A stretch of DNA of 64,000 nt from Sabellastarte sp. h YS-2021 (Eukaryota; Annelida; Polychaeta; Sabellida; Sabellidae). The stretch spans positions 56,535,816 to 56,599,815 of the forward strand of contig OZ024938.1 of the NCBI GenBank assembly GCA_964017235.1. The letters run 5' to 3'. Of the stretch, positions 3,099-61,239 are shown in pieces (positions within the stretch are counted from its first letter, which is position 1; each line of letters opens with the position of its first letter). The notes under the pieces were generated by a model. It was given only the letters and a program-made list of their open reading frames with translations. It had not been told where the DNA came from and did not search any database. Both the position numbers and the translations under genes were made by a program.

Positions 3099-4455
3099 GC
3101 ATCAGTCTGAGAGATGCCCGTACCCCACAGCCTTGGGAAATATTTTTAACACCATGAGATACAGAAGTACTGTATCAGTGCAAAGTTCAGGATACTTTCA
3201 GAGCACTGTCAGTTATATAAAGGTCCAAACAATGTTTAAATAGCGAAAATAATGTCGTAAGAGAAAGATAATGCATGTACTCTTTATCTACATCTGGCAT
3301 GGCCGAATTATGGTTTAGATGTTTTGAATATTACCATGCATACAGAAGTGGTAATACATTCAATGAATGCTTATGTGTGGTGTTGGAGCAAAATCTGTGA
3401 CTCACTTGATGAAATTTCATCTGTTACAATGGGAAGTTTTAAAAATAAATTTCTTAATGAATTCTAATACGACTTTAACAGTGCTTAATCTGCATCAAAA
3501 GACAGACCCAAAGGTGCAACAAGATTTTAAAGGTCAAGGTCACTACGACAAGGTGAAATCAAGGTCACACCATGATGCTGCACACCTACAACGCCTAACC
3601 AATATCCCTACCACGCATCAACTTCCTACACCTTATGGTTTTCGAAATATAGCCCGGACAAGATTTTATAGGTCAAGGTCACTACTGCAAGGACAAAGGT
3701 AAAATCAAGGTCAGACCATGATGTTGCACACCTACACCCCCTAACCAATGTCCCTACCAAGTATCAACTTCCTACACCTTACAGTTTCCAAGATATAGCC
3801 CGGACAAGATTTCATAGGTCAAGGTCACCACAGCAAGGTCAAGGGTCAAATCAAGGTTGGACCATGACGTTGCATACCTACACCCCCTAACCAATGTCCC
3901 AACCAAGTATCAACTTCCTACACCTGACGGTTTCCGAGATACAGCCCGGACAAGATTTTCAAACTCAAAGTCACTACGGCAAGGTCAAATCAAGGTCAGA
4001 CCATGACGATGCACACCTACACCCCCTAACCAATGTCCCTACCAAGTATCAACTTCCTACACCTGACAGTTTCTGAGATACAGCCCGAACAAGATTTTCA
4101 AACTCAAGGTCACTACGGCAAGGTCAAATCAAGGTCAGACCATGACGATGCACACCTACACCCCCTAACCAATGTCCCTACCAAGTATCAACTTCCTACA
4201 CCTGACAGTTTCTGAGATACAGCCCGAACAAGATTTTCAAACTCAAGGTCACTACGGCAAGGTCAAATAAAGGTCAGACTATGACATTGCACACCTACAC
4301 ATCCTAACCAATGTCCCTACCAAGTAACAACTTCCTACACCTTACAGTTTCTGAGATACAGGCCGGACAAACTTTTTCCTGCCACCCGCCCGCCCATCTG
4401 GACACCATGGGGGAAAACAATACCCGGACAGCCCTTAAGGGCTGTGGGGTAAAAA
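3099..4455 (+). mobile_element. Satellite-bearing non-autonomous element, family 1, copy 1
   Basis: The element starts with a GCATCAG..GAGATGCCCG segment followed by TACCCCACAGCC at 3121-3132. It carries about six tandem units (period 139 or 146 bp) and ends with the perfect palindrome ACAGCCCTTAAGGGCTGT at 4428-4445 followed by GGGGTAAAAA. The inverse of the 5' motif (GGCTGTGGGGTA) is at 4440-4451. A second copy with the same 5' and 3' ends is at 57448-62270, split by a LINE. Subterminal inverted repeats, a 3' hairpin and a central satellite resemble Helentron-associated or mollusc 'pearl'-type elements; that class assignment is inference. The short apparent ORFs inside are satellite translations. 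Confidence 0.75.
3563..4380. repeat. Tandem array, 139/146-bp unit
   Basis: The anchor AATGTCCC (first copy AATATCCC) recurs at 3601, 3747, 3893, 4032, 4171 and 4310, giving periods of 146, 146, 139, 139 and 139 bp. The 7-bp difference lies in a block of AAGGTCAAA-type heptamers. Each unit carries AGGTCA half-sites, most units with the extended form TCAAGGTCA. Confidence 0.9.
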
Positions 4456-9991: not shown

Positions 9992-10144
9992 CTAGCTGTT
10001 TGCTTGTTTCTTTGCATCTGGATCCCGGCGTTTCCACTGCCAGATCTGACGGTCTATTCCTGTACAAGGTTTCATCTCCACCTTACTGCCATCTTGTGTG
10101 AGCTCCATGCACAGGTTGGTGTTACGATGACGCAGCGAGTTATC
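9992..10144 (-). CDS. GALNT: GALNT terminal exon: lectin gamma repeat and stop
   Basis: Last coding exon of a polypeptide N-acetylgalactosaminyltransferase, the Golgi type II membrane enzyme that moves GalNAc from UDP-GalNAc to Ser/Thr and starts mucin-type O-glycosylation. The acceptor ..AATTGTAG precedes GAT at 10144 (phase 0), and 50 codons run to TAG at 9994-9992. The peptide starts DNSLRHRNTNLCMEL and contains VEMKPCTGIDRQIWQW, which is the C-L-x .. C .. Q-x-W pattern of the third ricin-B-type (gamma) repeat. The C-terminus is basic and short (KRRDPDAKKQANS). It joins in phase to the exon at 11163-11288. No larger alternative frame competes. Confidence 0.93.
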   Translation of the reverse strand, partial: DNSLRHRNTNLCMELTQDGSKVEMKPCTGIDRQIWQWKRRDPDAKKQANS

Positions 10145-11162: not shown

Positions 11163-11288
11163 TGGGCCATATACCCACTCCTGGTTCCCTTTCATGCCAT
11201 GACAAGGGTAGATCATGACAAACTGGCCCGCATAATCCATGCAGCCCTCATCACGCCGGATCTCTCCATTCTTAGACATCATCCAGTA
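11163..11288 (-). CDS. GALNT: GALNT exon: lectin beta repeat
   Basis: This internal exon of 126 nt (42 codons) is phase 0 at both ends. The acceptor ..TTTAATGTAG precedes TAC TGG ATG, and the donor is GGCCCA|GTAAGT. The peptide begins YWMMSKNGEIRRDEGCMDYA and contains YPCHGMKGNQEWVY. The C-M-D motif and the CHGMxGNQxW signature mark the second ricin-type repeat of GALNT lectin domains, which bind GalNAc already on the substrate. Either alpha-repeat exon upstream, at 13016-13120 or at 16079-16186, can splice to it in frame. Confidence 0.94.
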
Positions 11289-11961
11289 CTACATTAAACA
11301 GATAAAATAAATGAAAAAACAGACTGAAATATATAATTAGATTTTTTTTAAGATTAGATGCAAGCAGCTAATCTCTAATATTTTCAAACATCTTAAATAA
11401 CACAAGATAAGAGAGAATACATATAAATAATTTTTTTTTATCAATTTATAAAAATACCAAAAATTTACATCAAAATTATCCAGAACTTAGATTCTTTTCA
11501 AGGTTAATTTAAACAGTAGTTATTTTCTTAATAAATATCAGCCACTGCTTCAAAATTTAATTTATATATCAGTGGTTTTTATACTAATTAAACACAAGAT
11601 CTCTACATTTATTGACAATAAACATAAAAAATAAATGGAGGATTATTGTGAAAAATGGTCTACCCTTACCTACATTATCATTATAAGGAATACTCATTAA
11701 ACAGTAATAATGGTGAAATATCACTTTGTTTTGAAGTAAATTGAGTCCATGGGTAAACAGTAACAATGGTGGATGGCGGACACAAGATATTAATCCATAA
11801 GGGAGTAGTAAGATAATAATGTTAAGTAAGAAATGAATTTAAAATAAGAACTGTATGTTTAAATCTGACATTGTTAGTGGGTTAAGAATTGTTGGCTCAC
11901 TGAATTCTAATTATTAGACACATTATAGCAAAACCTAAGTTAAAGCTTGAGTTATAATCTA

Positions 11962-12306
11962 CCGTAAATGACCTATTTAGCGCATCCGCCCTTGTAACCG
12001 CACCCTACCTCTTTTTCCCGATGACAGTCCACAATATCCACATATTTTTTTATATATTGTACGTATTTTTACTTAATAAATTGACATTTTTATCACGACT
12101 TTCGAGTTTGTTTTCATCTACCGCCATATTTACAGGAAGTGGGTATTTCTAAATGTCGAAACACCGTTTTCCTACCGGATTAACCAAAACTTCATCCCGG
12201 AAAGTGTTTCATGATGGGTGCGCTAAAAGGGACATTTTTTCCCAACAAATATTGAATAAAAATAGACTTTGCTTAGCGCACTGTGCGCTAAATAGGTCAT
12301 TTACGG
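11962..12306. mobile_element. MITE with perfect 23-bp inverted ends and TA target duplication
   Basis: The left end begins CCGTAAATGACCTATTTAGC and the right end is its exact inverse over 23 bp. TA flanks each side (11960-11961 and 12307-12308). At 345 bp and non-coding, it fits a Tc1/mariner-type MITE. It sits in a GALNT intron. Confidence 0.88.
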
Positions 12307-13015
12307 TAAGTTATAACATTGAGCTACCCTAAGTTCCCTATTTTGGCTCACCAACAGACATCTTGTGACAACACGTGGCCCAACAGAGGCCATATCTAGA
12401 GGTGGAACCTAAAGGAAGGAATCCAGTGGTTGGTAAGTTTGAAACAATTACCATAGGGACTGAATATAAGGCTATCAAAGCACTAGCTGAAGCCAATACT
12501 GTTGTACCAGTTAACAGTTTTCTTATTTCATTGTAGGTTACGTGATTGTTAGATGAATTAATATTGACTTAAAACCTAAAAAGATGACCGTCCTAAATTG
12601 AAGTATTTTATCTCTATTTTATGCTAAAACTATAAAATGAGACTTGCATTTGCAGTTTATTCAACAATTTGCATGACCTTTCTAGTTTTCTAGCACCTCA
12701 CAGGGTGCATGCAGGTGACGTTTTTCCGGTCTTTCATTAGGCTGGTTCCCAGTCCATACATTTCCTTTCTCCAATGATATTATATATAAAAAATGGTTAA
12801 CTGGTTAGTCAATGGTTAAGTCCAGAAGCAACCCTGGTTACCGAATTATGCTAATCATTTCTGCCATACAGGTTGACCAACACCTGTGCAATACCAACAA
12901 AAGTCTGTTCACCAACATCGGTCTGAGACATTGTCTCAGTACTCCTTTCTTTTGAAAGTACTTGAGTAATCTTTACACACCCAATAACTTTCATTTTCTT
13001 TAAATCGGTGTTTAC

Positions 13016-13120
13016 CTGATTTCCACCCTGGTTATGACACGGCCACATTTTGATGGGTTTTTGCATGGAATGTGAATCTACCGGCGAATCAAGGCACTGT
13101 GGTAGTACTTTATTGCGGAT
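13016..13120 (-). CDS. GALNT: GALNT alternative exon B: lectin alpha repeat
   Basis: This exon of 105 nt (35 codons) is phase 0 at both ends. The acceptor ..CTGTTATTAG precedes ATC CGC AAT, and the donor is AATCAG|GTAAAC. The peptide runs IRNKVLPQCLDSPVDSH.., with PIKMWPCHNQGGNQ at the end. That gives the C-L-D carbohydrate-contact motif and the CHNxGGNQ end of the first ricin-type repeat. Joined to the upstream exon it restores the usual GALNT linker (..GE|IRN..). It encodes the same protein region as 16079-16186 with a different sequence, so the two are probably mutually exclusive. After C-L-D it has K, K and H against one D, so it is neutral to basic. Both exons are open, so neither looks like a dead duplicate. 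Confidence 0.92.
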
Positions 13121-15422
13121 CTAATAACAGAATAAACAAAATACATACCAAACACCAAACTAAAAGTAAAAACATCAAATATTTTGTGAAAACATTTTAC
13201 CTGAAATAAGCGCAATGAGAAGCCAGCTAAACTGAGCATTGAAATAAAAATCTAATTCAATTACAACTTAGTCCACCCAATAATGTCTTCAGCCTAGTCT
13301 ACCCAAAATGTCACTAAAAAGAAAAATTAGACAGCCAAAATGGCAACATTAATAACTTTGAAGTTCATCACAGACTATGAAATTTGCCACAATGGGAATA
13401 GGAATCAAACTTGTGTCAATTTTGCATCAGAACAAATCCGAGGCATAATGTGGTAACAAAAATCGCAAAAGTGCATTTGGCACATGGCTTACTCATTGGC
13501 AAAGTTCATACACTATGGTGAATATTATTACATTATCTCAGTCCAATAAAACTGAAAAAAAATGAAGATCTAAAACACAGACTAAGCAGTGTTGATTCTA
13601 GGAATTTCAAAAAGTGGGGGCGATCCCCCACCACTACACAAAATGTGGGGGAGGGGCTAAAAATTCTGGGGGACGACTTTATGATAAGTTTAAACTAATA
13701 AAAAATACATTTTCAGTTTATTTAGGCATTTTTAACAGTGGACTTCTATTAATTAGTGGTCAATTTTTATTGTCTTGCCCAATAAAAATAAACTTCAAGG
13801 CTAGTGATAGAATTTAAAAAAAATACTGAAAATGGTTATTTACATCAAAGTGGCTCCTGTCATGGCATTATGGTTTTACGTTTTCATCTGAAGTCATGGC
13901 ATCACAAATTCAGTCATTACACCATGAATTCATACAAATATGTTGGAAAACCCCACAGAATACCATGACCTCATGAATAGTAATGAGTAGTCCACAAATT
14001 CTTCAAGTAAAATATTGCTAAAAAATCCAATGGAATCGTCAAATATTTTTTACGCATACATGAGCTCTGTAGTTCTTCTAGTATTTGATCTTAAATCAGA
14101 AAATATTAAGAATTAAAACCACCACGAAAATCTGTGACCTCATTAATATTAATGAGTTGTCCGTGAATTTTGATCCAGTAAAATATTTTTCTAGGGAATT
14201 CCGACAGATATGTAGTAGCTTTCTACCAGTGAACGCCCGCCTACCAGTGAACGCCCGCCTTATATATCTTTATTAGAGGTCAAGGACAAATGCTTCTATT
14301 TGCAAACAAAATGGGCGTTCACTGGTATTTCCGGTTAGCGGTAAACACGGTCGATAATAGAGATATATTGTCAAATTACATCACTTTCAAAGAAATGTTC
14401 CCCAGCATATTTAAATCATTAATTATTTTGAATGTCATTGGATAATTTGGTTGAAGCAGAACATAAACTAAACCTCCAAATATAAGATCAATGCTAAATG
14501 TTATCTTAAACACGGGCGTTTACTGGTAGAAAGCCACTACGCCAATAGGGTCACCACCGGCTTCACTGCCATGGCCTGTTGTGGTAACAATCCAGTCTAC
14601 TGTAAGTTTCGTTTTTCTTGCAGCCATTTTTTATATAATCATCCACTTTCAGCTTAATTTTATATTTTTGGGTATAATATGTCCAAATACTGCCTGTACC
14701 TCATAATATATTTGAGTTTGTAAACGATCACGAAACCAAAATCATCTACAGGCATTATTCGAAGAACGTTTCGACGGAAAAATCAAAACCTCGACAAACT
14801 CTCGTTCCACGCATCGTTTCGATTTCTTTGATCTCTCGTCTTTTCGCTTCTTATATATATCCCGCATTGCCTTGTGCTGAATGCGTTCTTTTACAATCTT
14901 GTCCCTGCATACTTCGATGAAATCCACGAGCAAAAGCAAATTAATGCGAGATATCGCAGAAAACGCATCCTAGAAGCAACTCTGGACTAATGTCTAAAAC
15001 TATGGCAAATAAAATTGCGGAAATCTAAAAAAGACTAAAAACTCCGCTAGACATAATGCCAACTTATTCTACAATAATCTACAACAAAAATTTAACTGAC
15101 AAGATCATTTACTAAATAAAGGAATAGTTACAATTGTGTGTAAAGTTTTGGGACACTAGAACCTCTATTACCTGACTTTCTTTTATCCATACATATTCAT
15201 TTTTTATGACTCATTTATTATTTCTGAGAGCTTGTTGCAGAATTACTATTAATTCCAGTTCACAAATCTTCTGTTTTTCAAATTAAAAAAATTTTATGAT
15301 TGTTATTCCAAATTTTGATTAGATCTATTTAATATAATTTCCTAACAATATCTATCTGGAGGACAGACATAACTGCTATTTACCGCCCTGGCTATGGCTA
15401 TTGAAAAAATCATAAATTATAA
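13121..15422. other. Intronic stretch between the two alpha-repeat exons
   Basis: It contains the MITE at 14211-14547 and short chance frames such as 13614-13817 and 14085-14276. No coding exon was recognised. Confidence 0.4.
14211..14547. mobile_element. MITE with inverted ends and a duplicated left-end motif
   Basis: The left end GTAGTAGCTTTCTACCAGTG is answered by an inverted right end (CTGGTAGAAAGCCACTAC) at about 14530-14547. The motif CTACCAGTGAACGCCCGC is repeated twice at 14222-14258, and an inverted internal copy (GGGCGTTCACTGGTA) lies near 14311. It is non-coding. The small frame reading LPVNARLPVNARL is just this duplication. Confidence 0.7.
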
Positions 15423-15724
15423 GAATAACCCCGACAAAACAATGGTATATGCAGAAATTTACACTGGTTTGAGGTTATAAACTCCGAAGGCAATGCCAGA
15501 GAGGTTTATTGTCTCAAACCATGGTAAAACTATTCTAACATGACAAGTATTTAAATTTTATGAATATAATTTATTATTTGTATTTTTAATGGCAAAATTT
15601 GATTAATTGTTGAGACAGCCATAATGATCAATAATACAAACCACAGGTTATGCTGGGTTTACTGATGGGATTTTTCCTCGATTAGCAAATCAGAGTCGCG
15701 GACACAGCCGTGTCATGTTAGGAT
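15423..15724. repeat. Interspersed repeat family C, copy 2
   Basis: A diverged copy of 1886-2224 in the same orientation. It shares GGTTTGAGGTTATAAAC, the inverse CTCAAACCATGGTAAAA, and TTTTTCCTCGATTAGC near the 3' end. It lies in the GALNT intron separating the alternative exons. Confidence 0.65.
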
Positions 15725-16078
15725 CAAATTTAAATTTTAACTTTCAATACCAGTAACAATTTAGAATTTTAACACGGAAAAATAAATGAGTCAGAGGGTT
15801 TTAGCCCAATTTTAAGTTTAAGGAGGCCATAGCATGTCTGCTTTTGCCAATGGGTAGGACAGCTCTCACAAATACCTATGACTGTCAGGAAATGATATTT
15901 TGCTGTGAAAAGAGAAGTCAGATTATGTCTTTGACACAGAAATTCTGAGATCAGGGAAAACCAGCTAGGGGACGACCAGTCTTTAACTAAGATGACCTGA
16001 ATGACAAAAAAAAATCCAATACCAAATCCAAAGCAATGTGGTATTCTGACAATTGGGATTGTGGGTGTGTATTTGTAC

Positions 16079-16186
16079 CTGGTGACCTCCCATTTGATGA
16101 CAGCCATAACCTATCACCTTGGCACTCCCATCAGGCTCTCCTGTGTCTGCATCTAAACACTTGTTTAATGGACTCCCATTTTTTAC
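16079..16186 (-). CDS. GALNT: GALNT alternative exon A: lectin alpha repeat
   Basis: This exon of 108 nt (36 codons) is phase 0 at both ends. The acceptor ..CAATCACACAG precedes GTA AAA AAT, and the donor is CACCAG|GTACAA. The peptide has VKNGSPLNKCLDADTGEPDG and then YGCHQMGGHQ, i.e. a complete first ricin-type repeat with C-L-D and the CHxMGGxQ end. The loop after C-L-D is acidic (D, E, D with one K), unlike the alternative exon at 13016-13120. Upstream it joins the catalytic/linker exon 17058-17186, and downstream the beta-repeat exon, in frame in both cases. A retained pair of paralogous exons is the simplest reading. Confidence 0.92.
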
Positions 16187-16699
16187 CTGTGTGATTGGTG
16201 GATTTTTCAAAAAATTACACAACAAGAGTTGGGTAAAATGGCACTCTATTTGCTGGACAATATTTTTTGGCTATTAAGTACGGTAAAAGGACTACTCATA
16301 AAAAATATAGCAATTGTTAAAGAGTACTTCAACAACAAAAATGATATCCAAAACTTGGATATCTTTGTATAGCACAATCATCATACCATACTATTTAGAT
16401 AATCTGGTACAGCACTATTTGGACCTTCTGTCAAAGCATCATCAAAGCACCAATGGGACACTTTGGTAGCTTACCATGTGGATATTTTGGTTTTGGGTCT
16501 CTGTTGACCCTCTAAAACACAGCACTAACTGGATACCTTAGTACAAACTAATTGGATATTTTGGTACACCACTAATTGAATTTACAGCACACATTGGGTT
16601 CTTTGATCAAAAATAATCATGCAAGTGGATAAAAAGTAGCTTGCAAATATATTAAAGTTATGTTTTTATGTCTGCGATTGTTTGGACAGGCATCAGTAT

Positions 16700-16770
16700 T
16701 TCCTACATGTTTTCAGTAGCTAGATTCAAACCCACTACCACAGAGGTGATGGGTGAGTATAGGTCTAATG
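16700..16770 (-). mobile_element. Possible SINE fragment
   Basis: A minus-strand B-box-like GGGTTTGAATCTAG near 16744-16730 is the only signal. The A box is weak, so this is a low-confidence tRNA-like SINE remnant. Confidence 0.2.
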
Positions 16771-17057
16771 AAAACGGTGATGTCAAATCGATACTGAAGT
16801 GCCTGTACATACAAAAGTAAATCTTTCTGGGGAAAAAATGTCAACAATATATACCACAAAGGTGCTGCAGGGCCATTTATCAGAAACAAAACTGAAATTG
16901 ATTCAAACCAATATAGAAATTTGTGAATTTTTATGAATCAATCCTGTATTATTGACACATGGGGCCTGTTCTATATACTCAAGAAACACTTTAATTAAGT
17001 GTCTGATATTAAAATAATAAAACTTGAAAAAGAAAACATGTGCCATCTAGTACTGAC

Positions 17058-17186
17058 CTCTCCTGAAGCCACGGCTTCCCCTGGTATAAAGAGATCAGGG
17101 AAAATATTTTCTATGTACCACTTGAAGCTCTTACAATTTAGTCGCTGCCTTAATTCTTTTCTGGCAGTAACATCTCCATAATCTCC
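17058..17186 (-). CDS. GALNT: GALNT exon: end of catalytic domain and linker
   Basis: This exon of 129 nt (43 codons) is phase 0 at both ends. The acceptor ..TATTTTTCAG precedes GGA GAT TAT GGA, and the donor is GGAGAG|GTCAGT. The peptide starts [18 protein letters not shown] and continues [19 protein letters not shown]. The YGD .. R..LR..L.CK.F.WY.(E/D)N..P pattern is the conserved C-terminal end of the GALNT catalytic domain, followed by the flexible linker to the lectin domain. It ends with ..ASGE, so either alpha-repeat exon can follow. Confidence 0.95.
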
Positions 17187-17242: not shown

Positions 17243-20041
17243 GGCAAAAACAAAGCGTCCCGAAAAGGATATAAAAGTGAGTGCTAAAGTATTAAGAAAA
17301 TGTTCCATTTCTAGCCTTATACTGTTGTGGCAACCAAAGTCAGCGCAATCTGCTCTATCTAGCACGGTTTTCAAGATATAAGCATTTTTGTGTTTTGCAA
17401 TTTTTGCAAAAAATTCAAAATGGCCGCTATATTTGGCGCGACAAAAATATTTTGAAAATTGGCATGGCTACTCTGCACAGATATCCAGCAGGTCAAAAAT
17501 TTTGTTGAATTCGCTCCATCTAGCACAGTTTTCGAGATATAAGCATTTTTGTGTTTTGCAAAAACTTCGAAAATTCAAAATCGCCACCATTTCTGGTGAG
17601 ACAAAAATTTTTGAAAACAAGACCACTGCTGCAGTGTGTATCTCCCGCCGAGCATTAAAGGAGAAGAAATAGCTTTTCCGAGATTTTCACAATTTTTCAT
17701 TTTCGTGTGTGAAAGCTCTTCCAAACGTAGGTAAATGAGTTATTTGAGAAAAATTGGCTATCTGCAATACTTTTAAGAGATAATACGCATTTACTCCCAA
17801 AAGTAGATGAATGAGTTATTTGATAAAAATTGGGTATCCGCAATACTTTTAGAAATAATTAGCATTTACTCATTTTGAGTAGGTGAATAATTAGCTATGG
17901 GTCTGAAACTTCACCAAGTGAAAGCTCTCCCAAAAGTAGGTGAATGAGTTATTTGAGAAAAATTGGCTATCTGCAATACTTTTAGAGATAATTCGCATTT
18001 ACTCATTTTGAGTAGGTGAGTAATTAGCTATGGGTCTGAAACTTCACCATGTGAAAGCTCTTCCAAAAGTAGGTAAATGAGTTATTTGAGAAAAATTGGC
18101 TATCTGCAATACTTTTAGAGATAATTAGCATTTACTCATTTTGAGTAGGTGAGTAATTATCTATGGGTCTGAAACTTCACCATGTGAAAGCTCTCCCACA
18201 AGTAGATGAATGAGTTATTTGATAAAAATTGGGTATCCGCAATACTTTTACAGATAATTAGCATTTACTCATTTTGAGTAGGTGAGTAATTAGATACAGG
18301 TCTGAAACTTCACCCGAGTGAAAGCTCTCCCCAAAGTAGGTGAATGAGTTATTTGAGAAAAATTGGATATCTGCAATACTTTTAAGAGATAATTTGTATT
18401 TACTCCCAAAAGTAAATGAATGAGTTATTTGATAAAAATTGGGTACCCGCAATACTTTTAGAGATAATTAGCATTTACTCATTTTGAGTAGGTGAGTAAT
18501 TAGCTATGGGTCTGAAACTTCACCATGTGAAAGCTCTTCCAAAAGTAGGTGAATGAGTTATTTGAGAAAAATTGGCTATCTGCAATACTTTTAGAGATAA
18601 TTAGCATTTACTCACTTTGTAAGTAGGTGAGTAATTATCTACGGGTCTGAAACTTCACCATGTGAAAGCTCTTCCAAAAGTAGGTGAATCATTTATTTGA
18701 TAAAAATTGGCTATCTGCAATACTTTTTATGAGATAATTTGCATTTACTCATTTTGAGTAGGTGAGTAAATATCTACGGGTCTGAACTTCACCATGTGAA
18801 AGCTCTCCCAAAAGTAGATGAATGAGTTATTTGAGAGAAATTGGCTATCTGCAATACTTCTAGAGATAATTCGCATTTACTCATTTTGAGTAGGTGAGTA
18901 ATTTAGCTATGGGTCTGGAACTTCACCATGTGAAAGCTCTCCCAAAAGTAGATGAATAAGTTATTTGATAAAAATTGGGTATCTGCAATACTTTTAGAGG
19001 TAATCAGCATTTACTCATTTTGAGTAGGTGAATAATTAGCCACGGGTCTGAAACTTCACCAAGTGAAAGCTCTCCCAAAAGTAGATGAATGAGTTATTGA
19101 GAAAAATTGGGTATCTGCAATACTTTTAGAGATAATTCGCATTTACTCATTTTGAGTAGGTGAGTAATTAGCTATGGGTCTAAAACTTCACCATGTGAAA
19201 GCTCTTCCAAAAGTAGGCGAATGAATTATTTGAGAAAAATTGCCTATCTGCAATACTTTTAAGAGATAATTCGCCATCTAGCACAGTTTTCAAGATATTA
19301 GCATTTTTGTGTTTTGCAATTTTTGCGTAAAATTAGAAAATTCAAAATGGCCGCCATTTTTGGTGAGTCAAAATTTTTTTGAAACTTGGCATGGCTACTC
19401 TGCAGAGATACCCTGTGGGTTAAAAATTTCGTCGAAAACGCTCTATCTAGCACGGTTTTCGAGATATAAGCATTTTTATGTTTTGCAATTTTTGCGAAAA
19501 AATCAAAAATTCAAAATGGCCGCCATTTTTGGCGAGACAAAAATTTTTTCAAAATTGGGATAGCTACTCTGGAGAGATACCCTGTGGGTCAAAAATTTTG
19601 TCGAAATCACTCTATTTAGCACGGTTTTCGAGATATAAGCATTTTTGTGTTTTCCTTATTTGGAAAATTCATAATGATTAATTAATCCTTAATTACTCGG
19701 CCATTTCTAAACCAATCAATGCCAAAATCTAATGATTTCCAGATTTTAATAGCATGAATGTATTTGCCAAGTTTCAGGTGAATTGATAAAATCCCTTTCA
19801 AGTTATCATCCAGACAAGCTTCCCCATCGAAAAAAGACATTTTTGGTCATGTGACCTCTCTGATTGGTTGAAATGTCACTGCAGCATATTCAAAAAAATT
19901 CCCCAAGGCTACTGCATAAACCTGCCAAATTTGAAAAGAGTCCGCCTAACGGTTACAGAGTTATAAGGAAAACAAAATGCGGAGCCGGCGGAGCCTGAAG
20001 GTCTCCCATACACAAAAAAGCGTCCCGCAAGGGACGCTTAA
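17243..20041 (+). mobile_element. Satellite-bearing non-autonomous element, family 2, copy 1
   Basis: The 5' end carries AACAAAGCGTCCCGAAAAGG (core AGCGTCCC at 17254-17261). The 3' end is a perfect hairpin at 20018-20039 with arms AAGCGTCCC and GGGACGCTT around a GCAA loop. The 5' core is therefore repeated and inverted at the 3' end, as in family 1. Inside are direct copies of a block holding TCTAGCAC(A/G)GTTTTC (17356, 17518, 19266, 19446, 19612) that flank an array of about 133-bp units. A second 5' end of this type is at 63523. It lies in a GALNT intron. Assignment to a Helentron-like class is inference. Confidence 0.72.
17709..19260. repeat. Tandem array, about 133-bp unit with two 209-bp units
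   Basis: The anchor GTGAAAGCTCT recurs at 17709, 17918, 18051, 18184, 18318, 18527, 18662, 18796, 18930, 19063 and 19195. Spacing is 132-135 bp except for two steps of 209 bp, where about 76 bp of the unit is repeated inside it. Units share CTGCAATACTTTTAGAGATA and ATTTACTCATTTTGAGTAGG. Confidence 0.92.
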
Positions 20042-21265: not shown

Positions 21266-21360
21266 CAGGTCATTGTTGAATCTCTCATAGTAATAATGCT
21301 TGTATTCATCCATCCAGACTTCTGCAAGCCTAATAGAGTTTTTCTTCACAACATTGACTC
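21266..21360 (-). CDS. GALNT: GALNT exon: catalytic domain, most upstream exon found
   Basis: This exon of 95 nt has an acceptor ..GTGCATTCCAG preceding GA GTC AAT and a donor GACCTG|GTAGGT. It starts with two bases of a split glycine codon (previous exon must end in phase 1) and ends in phase 0. The peptide is VNVVKKNSIRLAEVWMDEYK and then HYYYERFNNDL. The N..RLAEVWMDEYK motif is diagnostic of the GALNT catalytic domain. The preceding exons with the Gal/GalNAc-T motif (WGGEN..) were not found between here and 25626, nor further up in the window. Confidence 0.94.
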
Positions 21361-34311: not shown

Positions 34312-35559
34312 TTATTTGTCCGCCTGGACCTGTTGGGCAGCCACAATGGGCCCCAGATGGTACAGGTCCGAGTCGGCCCAAGCTAGGTCCTTCAGATAGA
34401 ACTGAGTAAAGGTATTGTGGGCTTTCCAATGACAGGCCGAGAGAATTTGTTCCAAGGACACGCCTCCCTGAAAAGCCTTGGAAGCCGCAAAAGCCCTGAC
34501 ATCATGTGCCTTGACTTGAAGCAACTTGTGGGAATCCTCATCGGATACTTGGTAGCACAAGAGCACTGTTTGTTTAATCCAAGAGGAGATAGTAGCCGGA
34601 ACAATATCTTTCTCAAAGCTCTTCCGGAAGGACACAAAAACCAGATCCTTCCCTTTGCGGAGATCCTTGGTTCTGTCTAGATAGTAACGTAGGGCCCTGA
34701 CTGGGCACAAGGACCTATCCTCCTTAAGCTCTTTGTCCAAGGAGGGTGCCAAGGCCGGGATCACTACTGGAGCCACAGATGCCGGGCCTTCTTTGGCCAA
34801 CTGATTCTTGGAAAGAAACATGGGAGATGGATAGAAAGACACCTGACTCCAGTTCTCTTGGTGCCGTATATTCTTGAATAGCCAAGCATGAATTTCACTT
34901 CTACGCTTGCCTGAACCTAGAGCTAGAAGAAAAACTGTCTTAAAGGTCAGATGCTTAAGGGAAGCCTTCCTCATTGGTTCAAAAGGAGGTTTAGTCAACT
35001 GGTGAAGGACAAGGGAAAGATTCCAAGAAGGAAGCCCTCGTCTGCCCTTGGGCTTATCCCTATGAAAACTGTCCAATAAACGGGTTAAGTTTTCATCTTT
35101 GCTGATGTTCACCTCCTGATTTCCCACCATGTCCGCAATAGCAGTTCTGTAACCGTCAATGGTGCTAGGCTGGAGTTTTCTTTCTTTGAACAGATAGAGC
35201 AGGAAATCAGCGATCTGGTTCACAGAGGGCGACCGGAAGTCCACCTTATGTGCGTCACACCATTTGATAAAAATGGCCCACTTTGACTTATAAACGGCTC
35301 TGGTTGAACTTCTCTGAGGAGCCTCAATTCTTGCTGCCACTTCATCAGTGAACCCTTGTTCTTGAATGCAGGAGGCTCTAGGAGCCACGCATGTAGATTT
35401 AAGTTGGCTAGGTTCTTGTGAAGAAGGCCATTGAGAGGCTGAGTCACGAGATCCTTGCGAAGGGGGAGCTGGAAAGGAATCTGCACGGACAGATTGACCA
35501 GATCCCAAAACCAAGGCATGTTGGGCCAACCTGGGGCAATTAGGACCATCCTTAAGCAT
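34312..35559 (-). CDS. DIRS tyrosine recombinase, copy A
   Basis: A 415-residue ORF from ATG at 35559 to the stop at 34312. The frame stays open further upstream, but that part is an off-frame reading of the RT ORF. The protein is the integrase of DIRS elements, which inserts a circular DNA intermediate without target-site duplication. An N-terminal SAM-like core-binding region (about residues 80-160) precedes the catalytic domain, with Arg at 219-220 (GSGKRRSEIHAW), His352-x-x-Arg355 (HDVRAFAASKAF), His377/Trp378 and the nucleophile Tyr388 (HNTFTQFY). All are present, so the protein looks intact. Its start overlaps the end of the RT ORF by about 340 nt. Confidence 0.92.
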   Translation of the reverse strand: MLKDGPNCPRLAQHALVLGSGQSVRADSFPAPPSQGSRDSASQWPSSQEPSQLKSTCVAPRASCIQEQGFTDEVAARIEAPQRSSTRAVYKSKWAIFIKWCDAHKVDFRSPSVNQIADFLLYLFKERKLQPSTIDGYRTAIADMVGNQEVNISKDENLTRLLDSFHRDKPKGRRGLPSWNLSLVLHQLTKPPFEPMRKASLKHLTFKTVFLLALGSGKRRSEIHAWLFKNIRHQENWSQVSFYPSPMFLSKNQLAKEGPASVAPVVIPALAPSLDKELKEDRSLCPVRALRYYLDRTKDLRKGKDLVFVSFRKSFEKDIVPATISSWIKQTVLLCYQVSDEDSHKLLQVKAHDVRAFAASKAFQGGVSLEQILSACHWKAHNTFTQFYLKDLAWADSDLYHLGPIVAAQQVQADK

Positions 35560-37661
35560 CCCTGATCCATTACCTTCGACGTCACCTGATTGAGCAGTGA
35601 GACCGGAGGAAAGGCGTAAACATCCAGATTCCCCCATGGTATGCTGAGGGCGTCCACAGCCCAGGCTGCCGGATCCGGCACCGGTGACACAAACTGGGGA
35701 AGTTTGTGGTTGAACCGGGTTGCAAAGAGGTCCACCTGTGGGAGGTCCCAGTTGGAGAACAAGCGATTGAACACTGGTAGGGACAGGGACCATTCTGTCT
35801 GGATCACCTGACTGTGCCTGGATAGTTTGTCCGCTATCACATTCAGGCGACCCGGAATGTGCCTTGCCCTCAGGATTATTCCTCTGGGATGGCACCAAGC
35901 CAGAAGTCTCCACAGGAGGGCACAGAGAGAGCCTGATCTCATACCTCCTTGCTTGTTGATGTAGGCAACCACAGTTGTGTTGTCTGTGGCTATGAGAACA
36001 ACCTGATCCCTGCAGAGATGCTCGAAACTCTTGAGGGCCAGAAAGACTGCTTTCAGCTCTAGAAAGTTTATATGGAGGTGACTTTCTGGTTCTGACCAAA
36101 CACCTTGCGCTATAGCCTCTCCTAAGTGAGCGCCCCAACCTTCGTTTGAGGCGTCTGTAAAAACTTGTAGAGCGTGACGTAGGGCATGTAGGGGTTGCCC
36201 TCGCAGTACATTCTTTTCGTCCAACCACCAATCCAGATGGGGGTGCAGGGACGGGGGAACCGGAATCACTTTTTCCAGGACCTCCGGTACATGCCAATGC
36301 TGTTTGAGATGCCACTGAATTGGTCTCATGCGGAGGCGACCCAGCCAGACTTGCTTCTCTGTGGCTGTCAAGAGACCTATGAGGGACATAAACTGCCTGA
36401 CCGTGCAGGAGTCCCTGTTCTTTACCAAGAGAAGTTTTGCCTTTAATGTCTCCCAGCGCTCTGACGTGGGTAGAACCCGTCCCGTCAGGAGATCGAACCG
36501 GTAGCCTACGAAATTGAACACTTGCTGGGGTACCAGTTCTGACTTCTCCAAGTTGACCACCCAACCTAATTCGCGGCAGAGGGCCAAGAGGGTCTGGGTA
36601 TTTCGTTGGCAGGTTTCCGGGCACGGGGCTCTGAGCAACCAGTCGTCTAGGTACTGGTGGATTCTTATACCCTTTGTTTGAGCCAACAATTTCACCTCCT
36701 TTACCACCTTGGTAAATTCCAACGGAGCCGTGGCTAGTCCGAATGGAAGGGCTGTGAACTGATATGCCTTGCTGTTCAAAAAGAACCTGAGGTATTTTCT
36801 GGATCTGGGATGGATGGGGATATGAAAGTAAGCGTCGCTGAAATCCAGTGACGTGACCCATTCCCCTTTTTGTAAGGAGACCCTTATGGTTTCCGGTGTT
36901 TCCATCTTGAAAGTGTTTGTTTGGAGATAAAGGTTTAACTGGCTGAGGTCCAAAATGGGTCTCCACTTTTTGTTGGGTTTTGGGACCAAGAACAACCGGT
37001 TGTAAAAGGACAGGGAGGTCCGTACAACCACCTTTTCGACTACCAACTTTTTTCTTAGTGCAACCAAGGCCTCTGACAGAGCCCGGCTTCTTACCGGATT
37101 TGCATAACCACTTGTGATGAGAGGAAACCGTGTCAAAGGGGGCCTCATTTTGAACGGTAGGGTATAACCCTCCTTCAAAATGGAGACTACCCTGGGATTT
37201 GCCCCTAGTTCTTGCCACTTTGGCCAAAAGGTCTGTAGTCTCCCCCCTACACCCAACTCTTTGACAACATTGGGGACATTTGGAACAGGTTTGGCAGAAA
37301 GACAATGATTTACAAAAGAAGCACCTTTGACAAGCTTTATTTCTGTCTTTTTCACCACGGGTCTTATACCTTTCTTTTGCGGAAGCCCTTTTGAAATTGC
37401 ATACTGAGCATGAGTTGCAACATGACAAGATACAAGAGGATTTGAAGGTTTTGGAACAGTGTTTAAAGAAGGAACTTTGACTATTGTCTGAACATTTAAA
37501 CTGTCCTGAACCACAGGTTGTACAGTCTGCTTTACTAACTTTGACGTTTTCCCCACCTTTACTGATTTCTGAATGGGAGGAAACATGCTGTAATTGTCAT
37601 TTAAAACCTTTATATCCCTTGGAACGAGAGAAACGAGGGTTAGAACCCCTTCCTCTGCCAC
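35220..37661 (-). CDS. DIRS RT-RNaseH-methyltransferase-like polyprotein, copy A (5'-truncated)
   Basis: An open frame of about 813 codons with no internal stop. In order it shows a reverse transcriptase with RLFLVPKPNKKWRPILDLS, TSLDFSDAYFHIPIH and the YLDD active site; an RNase H with FTDASNEGWGAHL, the FLELKAV segment and ATDNTTVVAYINKQGG; and a C-terminal region starting at VDLFATRFNHKLPQF, with DALSIPWGNLDVYAFPP. That C-terminal region corresponds to the Dam-like methyltransferase domain known from DIRS elements, whose role is unknown. The natural N-terminus is missing because the copy starts inside the duplication, and the GTG at 37661 is only the first possible codon. Confidence 0.88.
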   Translation of the reverse strand: MAEEGVLTLVSLVPRDIKVLNDNYSMFPPIQKSVKVGKTSKLVKQTVQPVVQDSLNVQTIVKVPSLNTVPKPSNPLVSCHVATHAQYAISKGLPQKKGIRPVVKKTEIKLVKGASFVNHCLSAKPVPNVPNVVKELGVGGRLQTFWPKWQELGANPRVVSILKEGYTLPFKMRPPLTRFPLITSGYANPVRSRALSEALVALRKKLVVEKVVVRTSLSFYNRLFLVPKPNKKWRPILDLSQLNLYLQTNTFKMETPETIRVSLQKGEWVTSLDFSDAYFHIPIHPRSRKYLRFFLNSKAYQFTALPFGLATAPLEFTKVVKEVKLLAQTKGIRIHQYLDDWLLRAPCPETCQRNTQTLLALCRELGWVVNLEKSELVPQQVFNFVGYRFDLLTGRVLPTSERWETLKAKLLLVKNRDSCTVRQFMSLIGLLTATEKQVWLGRLRMRPIQWHLKQHWHVPEVLEKVIPVPPSLHPHLDWWLDEKNVLRGQPLHALRHALQVFTDASNEGWGAHLGEAIAQGVWSEPESHLHINFLELKAVFLALKSFEHLCRDQVVLIATDNTTVVAYINKQGGMRSGSLCALLWRLLAWCHPRGIILRARHIPGRLNVIADKLSRHSQVIQTEWSLSLPVFNRLFSNWDLPQVDLFATRFNHKLPQFVSPVPDPAAWAVDALSIPWGNLDVYAFPPVSLLNQVTSKVMDQGCLRMVLIAPGWPNMPWFWDLVNLSVQIPFQLPLRKDLVTQPLNGLLHKNLANLNLHAWLLEPPAFKNKGSLMKWQQELRLLREVQPEPFISQSGPFLSNGVTHIRWTSGRPL

Positions 37662-37688
37662 GTCCTCTATTCCTAGGCCTACTAAATG

Positions 37689-37909
37689 GAAAATTTAATA
37701 GTAAATTAAATTTTTATAAGTTAATACCTTACCTAGTGGACAGATGCATTTGTCCGGCGCCTTGCCGGTCACGCCAAACGTTAGAAAAAAACGTCCTGAG
37801 CTGGGCTCTGGCCGGGACCGGTAGTGTCCTGTTCATTCGCCAGGTGGCTGTATAGCCAACCTGCTGGTATACTGCGCATGCTCGCGCATGCGCTCTTCCT
37901 CTTTTTGTT
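37689..37909 (-). repeat. DIRS right inverted terminal repeat, copy B
   Basis: Same sequence as 33606-33826, 4083 bp away. It separates the full copy from the truncated one. Confidence 0.85.
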
Positions 37910-37969
37910 GTCTACCTATGAATTTCCCCTTATACTAGAATAGCGGGGCAGGTAGGGTGGGAATCCCCT

Positions 37970-38065
37970 TGTCCACTAGGTAAGGTATTAACTTATAAAA
38001 ATTTAATTTACTATTAAATTTTCCATTTTATTGCGTTAATACATCTTACCTAGTGGACAGATGCA
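37970..38065 (-). repeat. DIRS internal complementary region, copy B
   Basis: Identical in layout to 33887-33982. A C homopolymer at about 38176-38193, downstream of it, is longer than in copy A, where a G interrupts it. Confidence 0.88.
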
Positions 38066-38394
38066 GAATAACTACCCAGTGGAAGGAGGGTAGCAGAAGA
38101 AGGGGAATTCCTGAGAACTCTAGATACTAAGGGGTGATTCCAGCCATGGTTAAATAAACCAGTCCTTAGGAAAAAACACCCCCCCCCCCCCCCCTTTTTT
38201 TGAAATTTCCTTGTACCAACTCAACCGAGGGTACAGAGGGAAGGAGAGAGATGAGTTCATCACGTAGTGAGGAAGACGAACAGGAACTGAATAACCTAAT
38301 AATTCCCTGGAACCACTTAGGCTCGTGATAATCCAGGGGAAAACTTATTTATGAAATTATGTACACTATACACAATAATTCCCCAAGAGGCACT

Positions 38395-39642
38395 TTATTT
38401 GTCCGCCTGGACCTGTTGGGCAGCCACAATGGGCCCCAGATGGTACAGGTCCGAGTCGGCCCAAGCTAGGTCCTTCAGATAGAACTGAGTAAAGGTATTG
38501 TGGGCTTTCCAATGACAGGCCGAGAGAATTTGTTCCAAGGACACGCCTCCCTGAAAAGCCTTGGAAGCCGCAAAAGCCCTGACATCATGTGCCTTGACTT
38601 GAAGCAACTTGTGGGAATCCTCATCGGATACTTGGTAGCACAAGAGCACTGTTTGTTTAATCCAAGAGGAGATAGTAGCCGGAACAATATCTTTCTCAAA
38701 GCTCTTCCGGAAGGACACAAAAACCAGATCCTTCCCTTTGCGGAGATCCTTGGTTCTGTCTAGATAGTAACGTAGGGCCCTGACTGGGCACAAGGACCTA
38801 TCCTCCTTAAGCTCTTTGTCCAAGGAGGGTGCCAAGGCCGGGATCACTACTGGAGCCACAGATGCCGGGCCTTCTTTGGCCAACTGATTCTTGGAAAGAA
38901 ACATGGGAGATGGATAGAAAGACACCTGACTCCAGTTCTCTTGGTGCCGTATATTCTTGAATAGCCAAGCATGAATTTCACTTCTACGCTTGCCTGAACC
39001 TAGAGCTAGAAGAAAAACTGTCTTAAAGGTCAGATGCTTAAGGGAAGCCTTCCTCATTGGTTCAAAAGGAGGTTTAGTCAACTGGTGAAGGACAAGGGAA
39101 AGATTCCAAGAAGGAAGCCCTCGTCTGCCCTTGGGCTTATCCCTATGAAAACTGTCCAATAAACGGGTTAAGTTTTCATCTTTGCTGATGTTCACCTCCT
39201 GATTTCCCACCATGTCCGCAATAGCAGTTCTGTAACCGTCAATGGTGCTAGGCTGGAGTTTTCTTTCTTTGAACAGATAGAGCAGGAAATCAGCGATCTG
39301 GTTCACAGAGGGCGACCGGAAGTCCACCTTATGTGCGTCACACCATTTGATAAAAATGGCCCACTTTGACTTATAAACGGCTCTGGTTGAACTTCTCTGA
39401 GGAGCCTCAATTCTTGCTGCCACTTCATCAGTGAACCCTTGTTCTTGAATGCAGGAGGCTCTAGGAGCCACGCATGTAGATTTAAGTTGGCTAGGTTCTT
39501 GTGAAGAAGGCCATTGAGAGGCTGAGTCACGAGATCCTTGCGAAGGGGGAGCTGGAAAGGAATCTGCACGGACAGATTGACCAGATCCCAAAACCAAGGC
39601 ATGTTGGGCCAACCTGGGGCAATTAGGACCATCCTTAAGCAT
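38395..39642 (-). CDS. DIRS tyrosine recombinase, copy B
   Basis: A 415-residue ORF that appears identical in protein to copy A (34312-35559). It has the full R .. HxxR .. H/W .. Y set: Arg219-220, His352, Arg355, His377/Trp378 and Tyr388. It overlaps the 3' end of the RT ORF in another frame, a common arrangement in DIRS elements. Confidence 0.92.
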   Translation of the reverse strand: MLKDGPNCPRLAQHALVLGSGQSVRADSFPAPPSQGSRDSASQWPSSQEPSQLKSTCVAPRASCIQEQGFTDEVAARIEAPQRSSTRAVYKSKWAIFIKWCDAHKVDFRSPSVNQIADFLLYLFKERKLQPSTIDGYRTAIADMVGNQEVNISKDENLTRLLDSFHRDKPKGRRGLPSWNLSLVLHQLTKPPFEPMRKASLKHLTFKTVFLLALGSGKRRSEIHAWLFKNIRHQENWSQVSFYPSPMFLSKNQLAKEGPASVAPVVIPALAPSLDKELKEDRSLCPVRALRYYLDRTKDLRKGKDLVFVSFRKSFEKDIVPATISSWIKQTVLLCYQVSDEDSHKLLQVKAHDVRAFAASKAFQGGVSLEQILSACHWKAHNTFTQFYLKDLAWADSDLYHLGPIVAAQQVQADK

Positions 39643-41876
39643 CCCTGATCCATTACCTTCGACGTCACCTGATTGAGCAGTGAGACCGGAGGAAAGGCGT
39701 AAACATCCAGATTCCCCCATGGTATGCTGAGGGCGTCCACAGCCTAGGCTGCCGGATCCGGCACCGGTGACACAAACTGGGGAAGTTTGTGGTTGAACCG
39801 GGTTGCAAAGAGGTCCACCTGTGGGAGGTCCCAGTTGGAGAACAAGCGATTGAACACTGGTAGGGACAGGGACCATTCTGTCTGGATCACCTGACTGTGC
39901 CTGGATAGTTTGTCCGCTATCACATTCAGGCGACCCGGAATGTGCCTTGCCCTCAGGACTATTCCTCTGGGATGGCACCAAGCCAGAAGTCTCCACAGGA
40001 GGGCACAGAGAGAGCCTGATCTCATACCTCCTTGCTTGTTGATGTAGGCAACCACAGTTGTGTTGTCTGTGGCTATGAGAACAACCTGATCCCTGCAGAG
40101 ATGCTCGAAACTCTTGAGGGCCAGAAAGACTGCTTTCAGCTCTAGAAAGTTTATATGGAGGTGACTTTCTGGTTCTGACCAAACACCTTGCGCTATAGCC
40201 TCTCCTAAGTGAGCGCCCCAACCTTCGTTTGAGGCGTCTGTAAAAACTTGTAGAGCGTGACGTAGGGCATGTAGGGGTTGCCCTCGCAGTACATTCTTTT
40301 CGTCCAACCACCAATCCAGATGGGGGTGCAGGGACGGGGGAACCGGAATCACTTTTTCCAGGACCTCCGGTACATGCCAATGCTGTTTGAGATGCCACTG
40401 AATTGGTCTCATGCGGAGGCGACCCAGCCAGACTTGCTTCTCTGTGGCTGTCAAGAGACCTATGAGGGACATAAACTGCCTGACCGTGCAGGAGTCCCTG
40501 TTCTTTACCAAGAGAAGTTTTGCCTTTAATGTCTCCCAGCGCTCTGACGTGGGTAGAACCCGTCCCGTCAGGAGATCGAACCGGTAGCCTACGAAATTGA
40601 ACACTTGCTGGGGTACCAGTTCTGACTTCTCCAAGTTGACCACCCAACCTAATTCGCGGCAGAGGGCCAAGAGGGTCTGGGTATTTCGTTGGCAGGTTTC
40701 CGGGCACGGGGCTCTGAGCAACCAGTCGTCTAGGTACTGGTGGATTCTTATACCCTTTGTTTGAGCCAACAATTTCACCTCCTTTACCACCTTGGTAAAT
40801 TCCAACGGAGCCGTGGCTAGTCCGAATGGAAGGGCTGTGAACTGATATGCCTTGCTGTTCAAAAAGAACCTGAGGTATTTTCTGGATCTGGGATGGATGG
40901 GGATATGAAAGTAAGCGTCGCTGAAATCCAGTGACGTGACCCATTCCCCTTTTTGTAAGGAGACCCTTATGGTTTCCGGTGTTTCCATCTTGAAAGTGTT
41001 TGTTTGGAGATAAAGGTTTAACTGGCTGAGGTCCAAAATGGGTCTCCACTTTTTGTTGGGTTTTGGGACCAAGAACAACCGGTTGTAAAAGGACAGGGAG
41101 GTCCGTACAACCACCTTTTCGACTACCAACTTTTTTCTTAGTGCAACCAAGGCCTCTGACAGAGCCCGGCTTCTTACCGGATTTGCATAACCACTTGTGA
41201 TGAGAGGAAACCGTGTCAAAGGGGGCCTCATTTTGAACGGTAGGGTATAACCCTCCTTCAAAATGGAGACTACCCTGGGATTTGCCCCTAGTTCTTGCCA
41301 CTTTGGCCAAAAGGTCTGTAGTCTCCCCCCTACACCCAACTCTTTGACAACATTGGGGACATTTGGAACAGGTTTGGCAGAAAGACAATGATTTACAAAA
41401 GAAGCACCTTTGACAAGCTTTATTTCTGTCTTTTTCACCACGGGTCTTATACCTTTCTTTTGCGGAAGCCCTTTTGAAATTGCATACTGAGCATGAGTTG
41501 CAACATGACAAGATACAAGAGGATTTGAAGGTTTTGGAACAGTGTTTAAAGAAGGAACTTTGACTATTGTCTGAACATTTAAACTGTCCTGAACCACAGG
41601 TTGTACAGTCTGCTTTACTAACTTTGACGTTTTCCCCACCTTTACTGATTTCTGAATGGGAGGAAACATGCTGTAATTGTCATTTAAAACCTTTATATCC
41701 CTTGGAACGAGAGAAACGAGGGTTAGAACCCCTTCCTCTGCCACGTCCTCTATTCCTAGGCCTACTAAATTGCCTCCATGGTTGTTGTTCTTGTTCCGTA
41801 CCGGTAGACCTTTGATCCCTTCTGTCATAAGGCCGGTATCTGTTGGCTGTCCTCCAACCGGACTGCTGTGAAGCAC
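39303..41876 (-). CDS. DIRS RT-RNaseH-methyltransferase ORF, copy B, interrupted by one stop
   Basis: The frame runs 710 codons from 41876 to a TAG at 39743-39741, then continues in the same frame to 39303. At the stop, copy A has TGG (Trp in DPAAWAVDA). It is a single C-to-T change on the plus strand. The stop falls after RT (YLDD at residues 381-384) and RNase H (FTDAS 545-549, ATDNT 602-606) but inside the Dam-like methyltransferase region, so RT and RNase H could still be made. The first about 65 codons overlap the gag ORF in another frame, which suggests expression by frameshift or internal initiation. Confidence 0.88.
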
Positions 41877-43743: not shown

Positions 43744-43856
43744 GATATATAAAGCACAAAACTACTAACACACTTTAAACAAATATCCAATCTAACACTA
43801 GTAAAAATTAAAAAAGTTTCTCTTAAACTTCAAGCGTTAACAAAATGGACGCGCCA

Positions 43857-58971: not shown

Positions 58972-59066
58972 TCTCTCTAAGATCTTTGAAACAAAGTTTA
59001 AATTAGAGACAGGCCAGTAGTTTTTAAGGACTTCTCTATCAAGGGTTGATTTTTTTAGGAGTGGAG

Positions 59067-60707: not shown

Positions 60708-61239
60708 ATGTGGGAAGGAGTACTTTATAAGTTGTTTTAAATAGGAAGATAGAATGGGGAAGTGTTTAAAATTTAAAGGAAATGTGTAAGAAGGTAGTAT
60801 ATTATTGGGCCGATAACGGGGAATGCGGGCGAAATTAGGGGATTGTAGTGATATTTAAGTAATATGTCTGGATAGAAAAGATTTGGTTGAAAATTTAAAG
60901 TATATGACGAAAAATCAACTGTTTTAGGGAATAATAGTTTGGAGAGGCAGATTGTTGTATTTATGGTGAGGTTTACAACGAGAAACGGATTAATTTCAAA
61001 AACGCTACTTCCCTCGACGGACACACGCCACAAAAATATAAGATATAGAAGTAGTGAAACAGTACAAAGATCGGGACACTTTCAGAGCAGTGTCAGTTAT
61101 ATTAAGGTCTAAATGATGTTTAAGTAGAGAAAATAACATCTAAGAGAAACAAAATATATGCAAAGATAAAGTATTAAAACAAGACAATTCAATAGGAAGA
61201 TGACAGCATTAATCAGTAAACTAAAAACTATCATGCACA

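Follow-up and report, generated by a model that had tools for sequence, protein, structure and literature searches.

A PGANT9-type GALNT gene of the annelid Sabellastarte with two alpha-repeat exons predicted to be used one at a time

Two alpha-repeat exons at one place in a GALNT gene

We analyzed a 64,000-nucleotide (nt) stretch of DNA from the sabellid annelid Sabellastarte sp. h YS-2021 (hereafter the window; C19:56535816-56599815, i.e., contig OZ024938.1, of a genome of 1,785,957,881 bases in 647 contigs), which contains the 3′ part of a gene for a polypeptide N-acetylgalactosamine (GalNAc) transferase (GALNT). In this gene, two exons, here called A and B, each encode a complete first (alpha) repeat of the ricin-type lectin domain. 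The exons of the gene that lie within the window, in the order of transcription, are:

21266..21360, minus strand: last catalytic-domain exon within the window (GVNVVKKNSIRLAEVWMDEY...NNDL), 95 nt, 3′ end in phase 0, 62% identical to fly PGANT9A by tblastn
17058..17186, minus strand: constant exon before the alpha unit (end of the catalytic domain and linker; ...ASGE), 129 nt, 3′ end in phase 0
16079..16186, minus strand: exon A, alpha repeat version 1 (VKNGSPLNKCLDADTGEPDGSAKVIGYGCHQMGGHQ), 108 nt, 36 codons, phase 0-0
13016..13120, minus strand: exon B, alpha repeat version 2 (IRNKVLPQCLDSPVDSHSMQKPIKMWPCHNQGGNQ), 105 nt, 35 codons, phase 0-0
11163..11288, minus strand: beta repeat exon (YWMMSKNGEIRRDEGCMDYAG...EWVYGP), found as a single copy, 126 nt, phase 0-0
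9992..10144, minus strand: gamma repeat exon and stop codon (DNSLRHRNTNLCMEL...KKQANS stop)

The remaining upstream part of the gene lies outside the window, where six exons between C19:56622672 and 56605696 match residues 1-309 of PGANT9A and are separated from the in-window part by an intron of ~48 kb. These upstream exons contain LDSHCEC, WGGENLE and SHVGH, and carry the DxH and WGGEN motifs by which a GALNT catalytic domain (CAZy GT27) is recognized. A and B had first been picked out by a sequence-only reading of this DNA, and when we re-read the sequence its description held: the coordinates, strand, codon numbers (36 and 35) and terminal phases (0 and 0) all agree with it, the borders and phases of both exons agree with a position between exons 17058-17186 and 11163-11288, and the loop letters are D, E, D, K in A and D, H, K, K in B. 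Its identification of each exon as a complete alpha repeat is also borne out, with both being open, bordered by AG/GT and found by a family profile.

A six-frame pattern scan of the window for alpha-like units returned A and B alone, i.e., no third unit. We also searched the 2284 open reading frames (ORFs) of the window with a blind profile made from nine other alpha units, with A and B excluded. This profile found B with an expectation value (E) of 2.4e-11 (40.4 bits) and A with an E of 7.1e-5 (19.7 bits), with the beta exon of the same gene close behind A (2.1e-4, 18.3 bits); no further alpha unit was found among the window ORFs, where the next E was 1.9 in this run and 0.98-1.3 in three other leave-out runs. 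Since the beta exon scores nearly as high in the alpha profile, we class A as a divergent alpha unit; A itself scores 23.5 bits against an alpha profile and 14.8 bits against a beta profile. In a simulation of neutral decay from B to a similar identity, which rests on an assumed starting point (B), an assumed base make-up and no insertions or deletions, the seven invariant residues that A retains were kept in 0 of 20000 runs. With A as the only alpha exon the protein matches the Pfam ricin lectin family (PF00652, cut-off 29) at 89.6 bits, and with B as the only alpha exon at 94.8 bits, each match spanning profile positions 2-126, i.e., either exon gives the three-repeat C-terminal ricin-type lectin domain of a GALNT. 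Without A and B the match is 61.4 bits over positions 38-126, and with A and B together it is 100.4 bits, but this match consists of B, beta and gamma only.

A gene of the PGANT9 group

For both the A and the B isoform, the highest-scoring PDB sequences were fly PGANT9A and PGANT9B, followed by GALNT1 (179, 175 and 120 bits for the B isoform; 169, 164 and 115 bits for the A isoform). Our gene trees omit the alpha unit and are small, with few rows whose exons were joined by hand from the matches. The window gene, fly PGANT9 and a paralogue at C19:26.13-26.19 Mb (the 26 Mb gene) cluster with a support of 95/95 in a 7-row tree and of 85/92 in a second tree, whose 9 rows include two genes with long branches, and mouse-type GALNT1 groups with a gene at C19:21.35-21.41 Mb (the 21 Mb gene; 99/99 in both trees). 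A tree with the window gene placed next to the GALNT1 pair was rejected, with an approximately unbiased test p-value (p-AU) of 0.018; holding the window gene and PGANT9 as an exclusive pair gave a p-AU of 0.275, and the trees do not single out this pair within the group. Grouping with fly PGANT9 and away from GALNT1 in these hand-joined trees supports classing the window gene as a PGANT9-type polypeptide GalNAc-transferase, i.e., as a member of the group that contains the known fly alpha switch. Within this one gene of the PGANT9 group there are two alternative alpha-repeat exons, both open, constrained and correctly bordered.

The fly switch concerns exon 8 of pgant9, which is present in two versions by splicing, the alpha unit being basic in PGANT9A and acidic in PGANT9B; PGANT9B predominates in the salivary gland, and the two forms prefer oppositely charged peptides (PMC6115407). 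Drosophila pgant9 (CG30463, exons 8A/8B, PDB 6E4Q/6E4R) is like the window gene both in its group and in the lectin unit that is exchanged. The part that varies between the two PDB chains agrees with the borders in the window (GE / I...Q / Y), the fly borders being deduced from the protein chains. Because the identical unit is doubled in a gene of the PGANT9 group, the window pair looks like a second instance of the fly arrangement. The two cases differ in that the window pair has a far weaker charge contrast and GGHQ in A, and in that splicing, tissue bias and substrate effect are demonstrated for fly pgant9 and putative for the window pair. The parallel with Pgant9 that the sequence-only reading drew therefore stands as to the gene group by tree and as to the existence of the fly alpha switch (PMC6115407), but the charge contrast on which it also leaned is weak.

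Our search of the open-licence full-text literature found no report of an alpha-exon pair outside the fly, nor of the eleven-copy array described below. If both exons are used, PGANT9-type alpha splicing would not be fly-only, and it becomes possible to ask whether it came from a common ancestor or had two origins.

Predicted use of one alpha exon per transcript

We think it probable that A and B are an old tandem duplication of the alpha-repeat exon in a PGANT9-type GALNT gene, with a predicted use of one exon at a time that would give two enzymes. Splicing of A and B one at a time is likely, as judged from the lectin being a three-repeat fold and from like tandem exons being rarely constitutive. 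The pair has the features by which mutually exclusive exons have been predicted (PMC3228551), i.e., similar lengths (108 and 105 nt), AG/GT borders and phase 0-0; homology between A and B is recognized via the family profile, with a direct identity of 10 residues only. On the X chromosome of the fly, exons that resemble mutually exclusive ones were reported to number 90 among the 16180 that are constitutive or differentially included (PMC3228551).

In a transcript, exon 17058-17186 would be followed by one of the two alpha exons and this by the beta exon, and the cell would make two enzymes with a common catalytic domain and different alpha repeats, which would favor different mucin-like substrates. 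The two forms are expected to differ in their substrates because the alpha repeat reads acceptor-adjacent charge and GalNAc already on the acceptor, and we infer that both exons are used, one at a time, and change the choice of substrate. B would be the default form and A the regulated form, since B has the stronger splice sites (a pyrimidine tract of 14/18 and the donor CAG/gtaaac, 7/9) and GGNQ, and A has a weak acceptor (8/18 pyrimidines; donor CAG/gtacaa, 6/9) and GGHQ.

Several observations weigh against this prediction. The lengths of A and B are divisible by three and both are phase 0-0, and therefore the reading frame does not enforce exclusion: these symmetric phases keep the frame with A, with B, with both or with neither. 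A weak acceptor is not peculiar to A, and as the acceptor of the constitutive gamma exon likewise has 8/18 pyrimidines, splice-site strength is only a hint that B is the default. The blind alpha profile scores exon A about as high as the beta exon, and in the alpha tree A sits on a long branch (2.2). In the same WebScipio study, only 26 of the 65 predicted exons were already annotated (PMC3228551). In a search for RNA structure, none of the 22 inverted repeats in 11163-17186 pairs to both exon neighborhoods (judged by eye, with no random control). A DNA search with the 3′ exon and its flank (345 bases) found one genomic place, and thus no retrocopy that records a spliced form.

Two long-range repeat pairs, I3 and I5, were considered as a selector and rejected; they pair sequence of the intron 5′ of A (16820-16853) with sequence of the intron that follows B (12051-12253), and would therefore bracket both exons and not choose between them.

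The symmetric phases also allow a non-exclusive use of A and B, with all four combinations in frame, such that transcripts would contain both exons (a four-repeat lectin) or neither (a truncated lectin). We consider this very improbable, since with both exons the Pfam lectin match falls on B, beta and gamma and leaves A outside, and with neither the first third of the domain is missing. Hardly less improbable is that B is the working alpha exon, with A a copy that is decaying or seldom used: the long branch, the 6/9 donor, the 8/18 pyrimidine tract and the altered pocket residue of A would fit such decay, but its frame is open, both of its splice sites are present and its seven invariant residues are intact, an outcome that the neutral-decay simulation never produced.

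Charge, sugar pocket and origin of the pair

Use of A and B one at a time leaves the question of which property of the alpha repeat would be switched. The loop after CLD has a charge of -2 in A and +1 in B, compared with -3 in fly 9B and +4 in fly 9A. We compared this charge across nine alpha units, i.e., A, B, 9A, 9B, those of GALNT1, 2 and 4 and those of the 21 and 26 Mb genes; 20 of the 36 pairs have loop charges of opposite sign, a difference of at least 3 is likewise found in 20/36, and the difference of 7 between 9A and 9B is the largest (1/36 pairs). Because so many pairs differ in sign, the opposite signs of A and B carry little weight, and we dismissed loop charge as proof of a switch. 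The sequence-only reading, which described one loop as acidic and the other as neutral or basic, fits the signs of the two charges, but the contrast is weak, a difference of 3 being common among alpha units.

The GGNQ asparagine and the aromatic residue that precedes the CH motif are positions that we take to be sugar contacts. The motif has N in B, 9A, 9B, T1, T2, T4 and the 21 and 26 Mb genes, and H (GGHQ) in A; the row of the 54 Mb gene, as aligned, is without the motif. In B, a Trp precedes the CH motif, where Tyr or Phe is usual. The CLD aspartate is present in A and B alike. As an explanation of the pair, a change in the putative sugar pocket, where A has GGHQ and not GGNQ, is no less plausible than charge, and the pair gives a testable prediction of whether charge or the sugar pocket is the decisive part of the alpha unit.

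The pair could thus be a sugar-reading switch, in which the GGHQ form A may bind the GalNAc of pre-glycosylated substrates differently and charge is secondary, and we hold this as a tentative possibility. The histidine of A, set against the asparagine of B and the other full-length units compared, speaks for it; but the GalNAc contact of the asparagine is putative, GGHQ is found in the beta exon of the 26 Mb gene too, and B is itself atypical in its Trp. It is also in keeping with such a switch that both exons retain the CLD aspartate, mutation of which (D444 in GALNT1, D515 in PGANT5) is reported to abolish GalNAc binding by the alpha repeat (PMC12776162).

An ancestral PGANT9-type electrostatic switch shared with insects, in which acidic A would serve basic substrates and basic B acidic ones, appears to us rather unlikely. 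The window gene and fly PGANT9 do fall into one group, with the identical lectin unit doubled, and the loop signs of A and B parallel those of 9B and 9A. In addition, among the five GALNT genes with the whole alpha region readable, two alpha units occur in the PGANT9-type window gene only, with one each in the 21, 26, 39 and 54 Mb genes (four GALNT genes on C5, whose alpha unit the profile did not recognize, were left out of this count), and a link of the pair to the PGANT9 lineage is therefore mildly favored. When A, B, 9A and 9B are compared two by two, A-B is the least alike pair, with a score of 47 and 10 identities (B-9A 80, 9A-9B 73, B-9B 70, A-9A 65, A-9B 52), and a recent duplication of A and B is for this reason not favored, but the low score is possibly due to fast change in A. 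A shared electrostatic switch also has to face that a charge difference equal to that between A and B, or larger, occurs in 20/36 alpha-unit pairs, and that A is nearer to 9A than to 9B, contrary to a match of acidic with acidic. The alpha tree, with 36 columns, does not discriminate, since none of A+9B (p-AU 0.26), B+9A (0.46), A+B and 9A+9B is rejected (0.26 to 0.46); a one-to-one correspondence of A and B with fly 8A and 8B was tried by this tree, and no grouping was singled out.

Tandem exon sets in other GALNT genes of the genome

A search of the genome with PGANT9A gave 87 exon matches. These showed that the PGANT9-like 26 Mb gene contains eleven tandem copies of an acceptor-pocket exon (C19:26158001-26177766), the count being taken from the DNA read between exons 26183193 and 26154900, with the gaps between loci not scanned base by base; the homologous exon of the window gene is single (56612805-56613023). 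All eleven copies are open, with AG at the homologous acceptor and GT at the homologous donor, some donors having been picked among several GTs as the one following AG or CG at the conserved place. The copies are 193 to 247 nt long, and every length is 1 mod 3. The flanking exons are compatible with this, as the upstream exon ends one base into a codon and the first base of the downstream exon completes AGG or CGG; a single copy (or four, etc.) is therefore in frame, and zero or two copies would shift the frame. Pairwise identity within the array is 28 to 74% (median 37.5%), and the closest pair has a nonsynonymous divergence (dN) of 0.14 and a synonymous divergence (dS) of 0.60 (dN/dS ~0.24), which argues that this pair is under purifying selection. 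The exon holds a GGFxW stretch, with Phe or Tyr at the Phe position, a varied middle residue, and Ala in place of Trp in 3 of the 11 copies (c4, c5 and c7). Phe308/Trp310 correspond to Phe280/Trp282 of GALNT2, which contact the acceptor (PMC6994419), the placement onto the GGFxW of the array being our own. From these exons we predict that the 26 Mb gene could give eleven enzymes that differ in their acceptor pockets, and the array is more surprising than the alpha pair of the window. In the 26 Mb gene, a beta-like fragment (EYWLYMPEGEIR...) also lies just 5′ of the beta exon, and as read it is an incomplete exon.

A GALNT1/13-like gene has three tandem catalytic-loop exons of 181 nt, each 1 mod 3 (C19:21380763-21389410), and two different beta-repeat exons, at 21353875 and 21349320 (C19:21349320-21354063). 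Fly PGANT5A and 5B differ in this loop region (PMC12776162), and the three-exon set is of a known kind, since tandem-exon substitution is described for GALNT13, Pgant5 and gly-5, i.e., for a vertebrate, a fly and a worm gene of the same enzyme family (PMC9741552). The GALNT13/Pgant5/gly-5 exon lies in the catalytic domain, whereas the window pair lies in the lectin domain and belongs to another subgroup.

We lean, by a little, toward the view that exon cassettes add to the range of GALNT specificity in this genome, at four places spread over three genes: the alpha pair of the window gene, the loop and beta sets of the GALNT1/13-like gene, and the 26 Mb array, the last being an eleven-exon, Dscam-like cluster in an enzyme. 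Like the Dscam clusters of arthropods, the 26 Mb array would, if used, have many homologous exons at one place that are frame-compatible singly; it is unlike them in that it concerns the acceptor pocket of an enzyme and not a recognition domain, and in that there is one cluster of eleven copies with predicted splicing. If this view is true, tandem exon sets would mean that such animals have more enzyme specificities than counts of their GALNT genes suggest. For molluscs, a paper of 2019 on the only mollusc enzyme studied by then had speculated that there are few isoforms, with broad preferences (PMC6994419).

Two further observations concern GALNT genes elsewhere in the genome. At C5:121995643-122034996, the ordered series of exon matches runs through three times, as would be expected of a tandem of three GALNT genes. 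At C19:64399362, C4:88905262, C19:6063387 and C19:6420175 there are GALNT-like single long ORFs (548-771 amino acids) that look intronless and are 30-40% identical to PGANT9.

Other features of the window

The intron that precedes exon 17058-17186 contains a tandem array at 17721-19271, with a unit of ~133 bases. Within the 48-kb intron, at 34312-43761, lie two near-identical head-to-tail sets of long ORFs, ~4.1 kb apart, which by eye resemble retroelements with a reverse transcriptase and a tyrosine recombinase, and minus-strand ORFs at 57660-60854 resemble, again by eye, a non-long-terminal-repeat (non-LTR) retrotransposon. Near each end of the window, at 3519-4370 and 61234-62186, lies a further tandem array, and the units of these two (139 and 146 bases) are related.

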